In this document: positions 56,029-59,338 of the stretch, in pieces | Layout of the letters: the number at the start of each line of letters is the position of its first letter | Position numbering within the stretch: position 1 is the stretch's first letter | Assembly: GCA_002726915.1 (NCBI GenBank) | Contig: PBSY01000012.1 | Span: forward strand, 1 to 64,000 | Source: Verrucomicrobiales bacterium | GTDB taxonomy: Bacteria; Verrucomicrobiota; Verrucomicrobiia; Verrucomicrobiales; DEV007 | DNA length: 64,000 nt | Direction of reading: 5' to 3' | The notes under the pieces: generated by a model | What the model saw: the letters and a program-made list of their open reading frames with translations, nothing else | What the model was told of the DNA's origin: nothing | The model's database searches: none | Program-made: the position numbers and the translations under genes

Positions 56029-56973
56029 ATGGAATCGCCTTCAATTAGATACACGGTGCCCACTTCAATTTCGTGGTGGCGAATGAAACAAATACTTTTT
56101 AATCCCTTTGATATCGGGAAGTGGTTCGTTCTTGGATTCACGGCCTGGCTAGCAACTCTCGTGTCAGGTGCATCTCAGGGGACGGGCGGAACGGGTGGAG
56201 CGGGGGATACTGACGATCCTGAAATTCAGGAGGCTTTTAGGGAAACCAAGAACTGGGTCATGGAGAACTTGGAATGGATCGTCGGTGTCGGGGTGATCGT
56301 CGCTTCGATTATTGTGGTGGTCACGATAGTCCTCACCTGGGTTCAGTCTCGAGGAAAGTTTATGCTCCTAGATAATGTGGTCAACAATCGTGCGCTTGTC
56401 GGACAGCCTTGGAAAGAGTTTCGGAGTGAGGGTAATTCATTATTCCTTTGGAGCCTTGTCTTTTCTTTGATTGCTTTTTTTGTCTTCGGGGGCGCGATCG
56501 GGGGGCTTGGTTGGTTGATCTATCTTCAGTTAGACGCCAGCGATTTTGTCTGGACTGGGCCACTGATTGGCTATGGCGCTGGATTCGTAGGCTTTGTTTT
56601 CTTGTTGGGAGTGGGTTTCGCCTACATCGCGCGCTTGCTGGAGGATTTTGTGATTCCGCTGATGTATCTGCGCCGCCTTAAAACCACTGATGCTTGGCGA
56701 GTTTTTCTATCCCTACACTCTCAGAATGTCGGCAGCTTCATCGCTTACTTTCTTTGGATGATGCTCCTTGGATTCGCATGGAGTATTGTTATTTTTGCCT
56801 TTGTTCTTCTCACATGCTGTATCGGCGGTCTCCTTCTTGCTATTCCCTATCTAGGGACTGTCCTTCTGCTTCCGATGCTGGTATTTTTGAGAGCTCTTGG
56901 CCCAACTTTTCTCGGCCAGTTTGGAGACGATTTTAACCTTTGGAAGGGAACCCAGCTCGAGGTCCAACCGTAA
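56029..56973 (+). CDS. polytopic membrane protein of unknown function
   Basis: 314 residues. An amphipathic N terminus (ISWWRMKQILFNPFDIGKWFVLGFTAWLATL) is followed by a Gly/Asp-rich loop and about six hydrophobic segments (near 80-105, 135-165, 170-200, 225-250, 255-285). Architecture resembles DUF4013/DUF7544-like bacterial membrane proteins. No enzymatic motif is visible. It stands alone, with a strong intrinsic terminator 12 bp after its stop. Confidence 0.7.
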   Translation: MESPSIRYTVPTSISWWRMKQILFNPFDIGKWFVLGFTAWLATLVSGASQGTGGTGGAGDTDDPEIQEAFRETKNWVMENLEWIVGVGVIVASIIVVVTIVLTWVQSRGKFMLLDNVVNNRALVGQPWKEFRSEGNSLFLWSLVFSLIAFFVFGGAIGGLGWLIYLQLDASDFVWTGPLIGYGAGFVGFVFLLGVGFAYIARLLEDFVIPLMYLRRLKTTDAWRVFLSLHSQNVGSFIAYFLWMMLLGFAWSIVIFAFVLLTCCIGGLLLAIPYLGTVLLLPMLVFLRALGPTFLGQFGDDFNLWKGTQLEVQP

Positions 56974-56985
56974 TTACTGACACAG

Positions 56986-57011
56986 AAAGGCCCGGAAATT
57001 CCGGGCCTTTT
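56986..57011 (+). terminator. intrinsic terminator (possibly bidirectional)
   Basis: AAAGGCCCGG (56986-56995) pairs perfectly with CCGGGCCTTT (57001-57010) around AAATT, giving a 10-bp stem whose A and T ends can serve either strand. It lies between the membrane-protein gene and the convergent candidate selenoprotein gene at 57046. Confidence 0.85.
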
Positions 57012-57045: not shown

Positions 57046-57732
57046 CTACTCAAGGGAGTCAACCTTGTTGAAAATGGCGGATGATCCCGTCGCTACGACC
57101 TCTCCGGAGCTGTCCACCATGGTATAAAAAGGGACAGCATTGGAAGTTCGGTATTTCATTAATTTAGAACGTTCAACGTCTCCGGGAACTACGGTAAGCC
57201 AGGGGAAGCCGGCATCGGCGGCCCACTGCTCGGCCGCGTCCTCATCCGAATCTCGCGAAATGTGTATCATTTCTACTTTCGGATTATCGGCTATCGATGA
57301 GTTATATTTCTCCACCAACTGTGGAGCTGAAGATCGGCATGGGCCTCACCAAGATGCCGAGTAATAAAGGATGTAAAACTCCGGAGCTTTCTCCATTTCC
57401 GCGCTACGATAGCGTTTACCATCGAGGCGGTGCAGCTTTGTCTTTAAAACTTCTTTTCCAACAACGGAGGCGCTCACCGTCTCCAATGGATCAGGAGCGT
57501 CCTTGGATGCCTTCCATTCTTTGAGGTAGACAAGGTCCTTCTCGGATAGTTTGTCTTCGGTGAAGGTAAGGACGCGACCGGAGGACTGAACTGAAACGGT
57601 TTTCGTACCCTCATCGTAGGAACGAATTTCACCCTCAAATGTTCTAGATCCATCTGAACTTGTCCAAGTTCGCGCCATTGAACTGCCGATGAGTAGCAAA
57701 GAAATAGCAAATGCCAAAAAGGAATGCTTCAT
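57046..57732 (-). CDS. candidate selenoprotein: exported SHD1-thioredoxin with Sec (TGA) in the active site
   Basis: One gene of 229 codons interrupted by a single in-frame TGA at 57346-57348. From the ATG at 57732 there is a signal peptide (MKHSFLAFAISLLLIGSS), then an SHD1-like domain (RTWTSSDGSRTFEG to LSEKDLVYLKEW) and a thioredoxin-like domain. The active site reads SASW-TGA-GPCRSSAPQ, so the stop codon replaces the first Cys of WCGPC. Downstream the same frame continues with a normal thioredoxin C-terminal half (PWLTVVPGD, AVPFYTMVD with cis-Pro) to TAA. A SECIS-like hairpin follows the TGA. Selenocysteine is inferred; a nonsense mutation of TGC or TGT is the alternative. The product would be a redox protein in the periplasm. 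selA, selB, selC and selD are not in the window. Confidence 0.75.
57310..57326 (-). promoter_or_regulatory. SECIS-like hairpin downstream of the in-frame TGA
   Basis: On the minus strand CTCCAC (57326-57321), loop AGTTG (57320-57316) and GTGGAG (57315-57310) form a perfect 6-bp stem. The loop begins 25 nt after the TGA and has G in its second position. Bacterial SECIS elements are described with a loop 16-37 nt from UGA and a G in the first two loop bases, so it fits. Confidence 0.6.
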
Positions 57733-57856: not shown

Positions 57857-59338
57857 GTGGTGCGTTCTGGTCCGGAATCTGCTCCTTTGTTAGGACTTAA
57901 GTTCATTTTGAAAGACTACCGACACACCAAAATCATTGCAACACTTGGACCCGCCACGCAATCAAAGGAAATGCTGGCGAAGTTGATTCGTTCAGGGGTT
58001 GATATTCTGAGATTGAATATGGCTCATGCCTCGCACCAGTGGGTCGCCGATGCCATGTGGTTCGTGAGAGAGGTCTCTGAGGAAGTTGGTCGGCATGTCG
58101 CTGTAATGATGGATGTGAAGGGGCCGGAGATTCGTACTGGAGTAGTAGAGTCACCTATTCAGTTGGAATGTGGCTCGGAGATCGAGTTTCACGTGGAGGG
58201 GGTCGTGGCGAGTTCTGATGTGAATTCAGTCTCAATTAATTATGAGGGACTTCCTGCTGAGGTGAATATCGGTGATACCGTGCTTGTTGATAGTGGGCTG
58301 ATCCAACTCAAGGTGACTGCCAAAGACGATGTCCGTATTCGATTTGAGGCTTTGACCCCGGGAGAATTGACCTCTAGGCGTCACATTAATCTGCCCGGGA
58401 TTCAGGTTAAGCTTCCAGCGCTGACCAAAAAAGACAAAGAAGATTTGCAGGCGGGTGTGGAAGCCGGGATTGACTTTGTCGCCCTTTCTTTTGTTCGCGA
58501 ATCCGATGACGTCAAGATCCTGCGCGGTTATCTCGATAGCCTCGGCTCACCGGCCCGGATCATTGCCAAGATCGAGGATCAGGCGGGCGTACGCAACATG
58601 GAGCACATTGTTCGAGAAGCTGACGGCGTGATGGTCGCCAGAGGAGATCTCGGAATCGAGATAGACTATCACCGTCTCCCCCTGGTTCAGTCCCAACTCA
58701 TTAAAACCTGCCACGCTGAGGGTAAGCCGGTGATTATCGCGACCCACATGCTGGAGTCCATGATCCATTCACCCATGCCAACGCGCGCGGAGGTGTCTGA
58801 CGTTTCTCATGCCATACGAGAACAGGCGGATGCTGTTATGTTATCGGGGGAGACGACAACGGGTGCTTACCCGCTCGAGTCGGTTCAAGTTTTTAAAGAC
58901 ATCATTGGAAGTATTGAACCTTCGGTGAGTCAGGCGCTGAATGAACGGATCGTTTTAAAGGAACCCAAGGCGATGATGCTGCGTTCGGCTTCGGTCCTTG
59001 CCCAGGAGCTTGGTGAATCTGGTATCGTGGTCTTCAGTCGAAGCGGATTTCTGCCCTACGTTCTTGGGGCGCTGCGTCCTCATGGCATACCGATCTTTGC
59101 GTTCACCGATGACGAATCGATATTTCGTCAGTTGTTGCTTCCATGGGGGGTCGAACCGTTCCTGATTGAGTTCTCCGAAAATCCGGAAGAAACGATCCAG
59201 TCAGCGATGGATTGTCTCCGCAGCAAGGAATGGGTCGAGGTAGGCACTTGGCTTGTAGTTATCACCAACGCGTTGGCAGACGACAAAATTATCGATACAC
59301 TTCAACTAAGGAAGCTGGAAGCGGACGGGGACCTGTGA
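57857..59338 (+). CDS. pyk: pyruvate kinase
   Basis: 493 residues from the GTG at 57857. A TTG at 57908 with AGGA 12 nt upstream gives MKDYRHTKIIATLGPAT, closer to the usual family start, so the true N terminus may be there. Motifs: LRLNMAHASHQW, MMDVKGPEIRTG (K and E for phosphoenolpyruvate and metal), IAKIEDQAGVRNMEHI with the catalytic lysine, VMVARGDLGIEIDY, and SGETTTGAYPLESV. It makes ATP and pyruvate in the last step of glycolysis. The C-terminal allosteric domain is present. It diverges from the candidate selenoprotein gene. Confidence 0.95.
   Translation: MVRSGPESAPLLGLKFILKDYRHTKIIATLGPATQSKEMLAKLIRSGVDILRLNMAHASHQWVADAMWFVREVSEEVGRHVAVMMDVKGPEIRTGVVESPIQLECGSEIEFHVEGVVASSDVNSVSINYEGLPAEVNIGDTVLVDSGLIQLKVTAKDDVRIRFEALTPGELTSRRHINLPGIQVKLPALTKKDKEDLQAGVEAGIDFVALSFVRESDDVKILRGYLDSLGSPARIIAKIEDQAGVRNMEHIVREADGVMVARGDLGIEIDYHRLPLVQSQLIKTCHAEGKPVIIATHMLESMIHSPMPTRAEVSDVSHAIREQADAVMLSGETTTGAYPLESVQVFKDIIGSIEPSVSQALNERIVLKEPKAMMLRSASVLAQELGESGIVVFSRSGFLPYVLGALRPHGIPIFAFTDDESIFRQLLLPWGVEPFLIEFSENPEETIQSAMDCLRSKEWVEVGTWLVVITNALADDKIIDTLQLRKLEADGDL

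Follow-up and report, generated by a model that had tools for sequence, protein, structure and literature searches.

The window analysed here is a stretch of 64,000 nucleotides from a Verrucomicrobiales draft genome (3.53 Mb, 102 contigs, completeness 92.5). Its minus strand carries, at positions 57046 to 57732, a probable exported thioredoxin-like selenoprotein gene of 228 residues ending in a TAG stop, as judged from translation and orthologues. The 228 codons contain a single internal TGA, at codon 129, around which the product of the window copy reads ...YYSASW, the TGA, and then GPCRSSAPQLVEKY.... As an earlier note on this DNA had stated, the TGA lies exactly at the first Cys of W-C-G-P-C (57348-57346, minus strand), and both halves are otherwise intact, with no further stop in the frame. 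Other frames of the window also end in TGA (10 of the 36 stop-to-stop frames of at least 250 codons, some of these frames not being genes). On the plus strand, the neighbour at 57857 to 59338 looks like a pyruvate kinase gene (named by inspection), and the neighbour on the other side (56029 to 56973) is a membrane-protein gene that converges on the thioredoxin-like gene. Between the converging genes lies a terminator-like 12-bp hairpin (56985 to 57011), with a U-rich tail on the plus strand only; two terminator-like sites were found in the region, against 1.0 expected from shuffles. A comparison of 12 regions yielded no functional partner from the gene neighbourhood, and the window's neighbours are common only to the nearest relatives, G011 and G031. 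Four other relatives carry related proteins near the gene (L180:6481-7086, L181:9361-12267, L182:6841-7425, and L185:3333-5798); one of these, judged by eye, has the beginning of a planctomycete-type cytochrome, with a C-A-D-C-H motif.

The protein begins with a probable signal peptide (residues 1 to 20, MKHSFLAFAISLLLIGSSMA; 57673 to 57732, minus strand), a hydrophobic leader recognized by inspection, and is probably exported; residues 1 to 17 are the sole listed segment with a pLDDT below 50 in the AlphaFold model. Residues 21 to 77 (57502 to 57672, minus strand) are predicted to form an SH3-like or SHD1-type barrel and a helix, with strands at residues 21 to 25, 31 to 40, 45 to 50, and 53 to 58 and the helix at 64 to 77. 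We read this domain as SH3-like from its predicted strand order and from weak SH3-type Pfam matches (DUF150_C). The SHD1 domain named in the earlier note holds for the family, as SHD1 (PF03983) exceeds its cut-off of 23.7 in the relatives L040 (26.8) and L044 (31.7) and matches 6 of the 17 members of alignment A1 at E ≤ 0.01, but Pfam does not detect it in the window copy, in which it is absent from the whole protein at E ≤ 1 and from the barrel taken separately at E ≤ 0.1. The putative SHD1-type label of the window copy is thus drawn only from the alignment and the predicted fold. Residues 100 to 226 (57055 to 57435, minus strand) correspond to a thioredoxin fold, tryparedoxin/ResA-like, which spans the TGA. 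The best Pfam match of the window copy is PF13905 (48.3 bits; cut-off, 27), a domain found in all 17 members of A1 at E ≤ 0.01. In the AlphaFold prediction, a single thioredoxin fold runs unbroken through residue 129, with a helix (residues 130 to 147) starting right after the putative Sec129. The residues x-P-C right behind the TGA show protein-level conservation in A1, in which the putative resolving Cys (TGC codon 132, 57337 to 57339, minus strand) and P201, a candidate for the cis-Pro loop position, are invariant. The rows of a PDB comparison span mainly model residues 87 to 228 and hardly cover the N-terminal barrel.

The earlier note had proposed a search of the genome for selA, selB, selD, and tRNA-Sec, and all of them are present on the window's own contig, within C12:76,314-89,378. 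The tRNA-Sec scores 55.4 bits (cut-off, 47) and has the anticodon TCA according to ARAGORN, selA scores 503.5 bits, the main piece of selB scores 287 bits (311.8 with its neighbours in frame), and a Sec-type selD scores 373.6 bits. The organism therefore very probably decodes Sec. The selD gene has one in-frame TGA of its own, in S-C-A-G-U-A-S-K, with a separate 6-bp hairpin (loop GGTCC) behind it. A scan of the contig for further selenoproteins by motif and hairpin gave seven candidates, of which only selD and the thioredoxin gene look real; the others were dismissed by eye.

Beyond the window, the same contig holds a selenium island (C12:74010-89393; L021:11-15394), in which mnmH (2-selenouridine synthase) and a NifS-like desulfurase gene accompany tRNA-Sec, the Sec-type selD, selA, and selB. 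The island also encodes a SenB-type selenosugar synthase (TIGR04348, 306.3 bits; cut-off, 300) and a putative selenate ABC importer, the SBP of which matches TIGR04553 (261.3 bits; cut-off, 250), with PhnC- and PhnE-like parts below their cut-offs. This gene content suggests that Sec, selenouridine, and perhaps selenoneine-type chemistry occur together. Selenate-type ABC importer genes come after selA in 8 of 12 chosen regions, 11 of which have selA (L166, L167, L169 to L171, L173, L174, and L177), and are followed by selB in L169, L170, L174, and L177, which makes the importer a candidate for a dedicated selenium uptake system of Verrucomicrobiales. The nearest relative, G011, has two tRNA-Sec matches above the cut-off, 0.7 kb apart (G011:C73:119883-119977 and 120585-120679).

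Matches to the protein were found in 93 of the 95 genomes searched, its own included, and among the matches listed, the strongest (to about E 1e-30) mostly contain one TGA. The active-site codon in 30 orthologue loci, where the earlier note had suggested looking for Cys or TGA, is TGA in 19 and TGC in 11, with nothing else, and most TGA forms have the hairpin described below. Close reading of 14 of the 80 loci from a GTDB scan gave 11 TGA and 3 Cys forms, some of the genomes repeating the earlier set. A frame script run over L023 to L132 (W-TGA/TGC/TGT-x-x-C, preceded by at least 40 codons and followed by at least 60, without duplicates) returned 30 TGA and 120 Cys frames. The TGA frame on the minus strand of L054, another thioredoxin, was set aside, leaving 29 TGA frames at 26 loci, including the window's own. 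All 29 contain W-U-x-x-C, which was a criterion of the script, and 24 contain the barrel motif (R-x-W-T-S type). The five without it are L039, L042, L043, the second L037 copy, and L064, the last of which resembles the members of a barrel-less sister Sec-thioredoxin family. Locus L026 (G014) fell to the length filter at a contig end, with both TGA and hairpin present. The L054 frame (position 2552 of the reverse complement) has its in-frame TGA in ...FWGHWUGPCRAMYPHG... and, by eye, no CAGTT loop. Side-by-side second copies of Sec-thioredoxin genes are seen in L036, L037, and L058.

Two cultured bacteria, Rubritalea marina DSM 17716 and R. profundi SAORIC-165, belong to the TGA set, and each has selA; selA was detected in four of the five named genomes searched, the exception being the MAG of L054, a draft. 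A search of 387 genomes of the phylum at E ≤ 1e-12 placed all the TGA matches listed in the same order (the window's own genome, G314, G317, G455, and a weak match in G298). A tree of 38 sequences (29 Sec and 9 Cys, without the near-copy L051) has six label changes, five of which are forced by well-supported branches, and 21 of 500 label shuffles were as low for Sec. The Cys forms L028 (from G030, which keeps selA and tRNA-Sec) and L033 (from G005, in which selA was not found) sit among Sec forms, which indicates that Sec and Cys have been swapped several times.

The perfect 6-bp hairpin with loop AGUUG that the earlier note had placed 20 nt after the TGA was confirmed as a putative SECIS element at 57310 to 57326 on the minus strand (stem CUCCAC/GUGGAG, loop at 57316-57320), with 19 nt between the UGA and the stem; the same nucleotides also encode A-P-Q-L-V-E. 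The hairpin by itself would not have been proof, since the folding energy of the isolated 52-nt stretch is unremarkable (z = -0.51; 49 of 200 shuffles fold as well). No Rfam SECIS model matches either; the evidence for a SECIS lies in conservation and not in energy. Synonymous re-coding of the window protein produced a 6-bp stem with the loop G in 129 of 20,000 draws. A strict pattern of the window hairpin matched the genome once, as did its reversed control, so that this search says little. One figure legend in PMC1794560 refers to a conserved apical-loop G of bacterial SECIS elements.

With a stem defined as at least 5 Watson-Crick pairs and a G within the first two loop bases, hairpins were found in 23 of the 29 TGA genes, compared with 0.54 expected when codons were redrawn among synonyms, and in 20 of the 24 barrel-bearing ones; L029, L041, L043, L061, L062, and L064 fall outside this definition, and at least 6 pairs form in 17 of the 29. 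The same definition applied to none of the 10 Cys relatives and to 5 of all 120 Cys thioredoxin frames, the ten included. When a 5-base loop was fixed at positions 28 to 32, the counts were 23 of 29 TGA genes, 1 of 10 Cys relatives, and 1 of 120 Cys frames, and without the loop rule, 8 of the 120 Cys frames have 5 bp somewhere. The hairpin is absent from the Cys orthologues, save for a stem in L044. This Cys relative (L044:1501-2151) has a perfect 6-bp stem at the SECIS place, CTCCGC-ATCTT-GCGGAG, with no G at the loop start; the stem may be left over from a SECIS or have arisen by chance. The codons of the stem and loop are nearly fixed in the TGA genes (CCA in 27 of 29, CAG and GTG in all 29), although synonyms exist. 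Among the 29 TGA genes, 92.5% of stem cells are paired, a value biased towards pairing by the definition of the stem from the window sequence, and five cells are two-sided, with none of 500 shuffles as high; two pairs show two-sided changes, a number matched in 33 of 500 shuffles. When 16 more distant TGA genes were added, the 45 sequences had 91.1% of cells paired and 33 two-sided cells, compared with 6.7 in shuffles, none of the 500 reaching that number, and two-sided changes affected five of the six pairs (matched in 25 of 500 shuffles). This covariation across all 45 sequences is the strongest single evidence for the hairpin.

The distribution of the TGA forms follows that of selA. Among the matches listed, all 32 genomes with TGA have selA, compared with 16 of the 63 others (Fisher p 1.5e-13, treating genomes as independent and ignoring kinship). 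The 32 include the window's own genome and more distant matches, G022 being counted only through frame L205, which was unconfirmed on reading; the selA threshold was E ≤ 1e-3, and G038 and G055 show selA only as fragments under the cut-off. All 19 genomes with the strongest TGA matches have selA. A tRNA-Sec above the cut-off is missing from four of these 19, G002, G004, G018, and G026 (drafts, with stricter filters), each of which has selA. The tRNA-Sec count is less telling than selA, since many genomes that lack selA also have weaker tRNA matches scoring close to the cut-off.

The Sec machinery, the conserved TGA and hairpin, the purifying selection described next, and the association of TGA with selA support the reading proposed by the earlier note, and it is very likely that the in-frame TGA is read as selenocysteine and that the gene encodes a selenoprotein. 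The UGA could instead be a leaky or regulated stop, giving mostly the short barrel protein and some read-through with Trp or Cys. A truncated product may indeed occur when selenium is scarce, as any selenoprotein may give one under such conditions, but TGC is the sole alternative to TGA across the 30 orthologue loci, TGA accompanies selA, and a covarying hairpin comes after it in the register of a SECIS, all of which makes a leaky stop very improbable. Still less probable is a pseudogene or sequencing error, the alternative raised in the earlier note, in which the protein ends at residue 128. A single change from TGC or TGT to TGA would suffice, and the C-terminal half appears as a separate ORF, but the same TGA recurs in 28 further frames from other assemblies, two cultured species included, and no other stop interrupts the 228 codons. 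Moreover, the codons downstream of the TGA are under purifying selection, with dN/dS values of 0.054, 0.076, 0.110, and 0.138 in those four pairs, out of eight, whose dS was unsaturated (0.124, 0.101, and 0.124 before the TGA in three pairs), and the pseudogene alternative therefore fails. A split into a barrel protein and a second protein, begun downstream at an internal TTG (57318), is scarcely credible. The mechanical ORF at 57046-57318 exists, but the split would cut the thioredoxin fold after its active site, x-P-C is conserved as protein, and each Cys relative has one uninterrupted frame.

The Sec reading extends to further thioredoxins. Among 18 stretches with weaker TGA matches that were read, 16 hold a W-U-x-x-C frame by the script criteria; L201 and L205 hold none, and an extra frame in L196 was dropped because it looked like chance. 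By eye, the barrel is absent from 14 of these 16 distant TGA genes, being present in L203 and L204, and 12 of the 16 read W-U-G-A/G-C. The loop register is occupied by AGUUG or AGUUA in 15 of the 16 (L200 differs), and the stem sequences vary, with CGAAGC/GCUUCG (as CGAAGC-AGUUG-GCUUCG in an unchanged register) and CUGCAC/GUGCAG among them. The genes at L190 to L199, L202, and L207 make up a barrel-less sister Sec-thioredoxin family with W-U-G-A/G-C, which shares the SECIS register and loop and has various stems. No NCBIfam model (June 2026) was passed by L193 and L198 of the sister family or by the look-alike L064. The pattern TGG-TGA-N6-TGY-N15-CAGTTR has 124 matches, which were not read individually, in 96 of 386 genomes of the order, and the reversed pattern has 13, which means that about one in ten of the 124 could be fortuitous. 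Three pattern matches lie in a row at G591:C58:49149-50546. A further group in G617, G035, and G667 (e.g., G035:C28:31065-31100; context, CCTCAGTTG) is possibly a third Sec-thioredoxin family.

Several known systems resemble the protein. Tryparedoxins of trypanosomatids are of the PF13905 type with a WCPPC motif; they are eukaryotic, use Cys instead of Sec, and, to our knowledge, have neither signal peptide nor barrel. ResA/StoA/DsbE-type oxidoreductases, which share 13 to 19% identity with the window protein, have a Cys active site, and we know of none with an N-terminal barrel. The Cys SHD1-type thioredoxins of the same order (L028, L033, L044, and L047 to L052) share the architecture of the Sec form and differ in having TGC for TGA and no hairpin with a loop G (0 of 10, counting the barrel-less L038), the stem itself recurring in L044. 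In known Sec-thioredoxins, the SECIS lies just after the UGA. Known UxxC Sec-thioredoxins have a thioredoxin fold and Sec at the N-terminal active-site position, as in the SHD1-type family. Table 1 of a 2026 review lists 119 prokaryotic selenoprotein families and subfamilies, several of them UxxC thioredoxin-like, and the Sec thioredoxins and thiol:disulfide oxidoreductases among these are Trx (PF00085), Prx-like (PF00578), Redoxin (PF08534), and isomerase-like (cd02966) (PMC13188914). Unlike in the Verrucomicrobiales family, SHD1 is named for none of the UxxC families in that table, and PF13905 takes the place of their domains as the best Pfam match. The TGA forms of the SHD1-type family occur only in Verrucomicrobiales among the genomes searched. 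The string "Verrucomicrob-" is absent from the main text of this review and from those of PMC12013277, PMC9312934, PMC5029168, and PMC1794560, and Sec use is mentioned for planctomycetes of a red alga (PMC4807772). No NCBIfam selenoprotein model (June 2026) reaches its cut-off in five proteins, L064 among them (e.g., NF053656, 13.9 bits; cut-off, 100). The literature searched, which left preprints and most subscription papers outside, contained no description of the family and no joint treatment of SHD1 and Verrucomicrobia, and for Rubritalea with selenocysteine it contained one paper, on naphthenic acid degradation. We regard the family as a new subfamily within a familiar kind of selenoprotein; the selenoproteome of the lineage seems to have been hardly described so far.

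In the proposed mechanism, UGA 129 would be decoded as Sec by SelB and tRNA-Sec under the direction of the SECIS hairpin 19 nt downstream, and the product would be exported with loss of its signal peptide and serve as a thiol-disulfide oxidoreductase of the cell envelope. The attacking selenolate would be that of Sec129, and Cys132 would resolve the mixed selenenyl sulfide, with electrons probably supplied by a DsbD-type membrane protein; two DsbD_TM proteins are encoded in the genome. The N-terminal SH3-like domain would probably position the enzyme on a partner. The conserved TGA, the hairpin, the machinery, the purifying selection, and the predicted fold come from sequence, whereas Sec incorporation, export, and reductase activity are inferred. 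The envelope-reductase part of this explanation is reasonably likely, and any reductant, substrate, or function of the barrel named here is a guess.

Genes of this sort are split or truncated by standard gene calling, and under the ordinary code the locus reads as two ORFs. With Rubritalea marina DSM 17716 and R. profundi in culture, the Sec family is open to direct tests. The repeated switches between Sec and Cys within one order, with some Cys forms in genomes that retain the Sec machinery, offer a natural experiment on the use of Sec in extracytoplasmic thioredoxins. On a wider reading, which we consider somewhat favoured, Verrucomicrobiales may possess an unrecognised envelope-directed selenoproteome of several Sec-thioredoxin families, with or without the SHD1-type barrel and some in tandem, that would share one SECIS type (an AGUUR loop at a fixed distance from the UGA) and be supplied with selenium by the selenate-type ABC importer encoded after selA. 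If this is true, much of the periplasmic thiol chemistry of the lineage would run on selenium.
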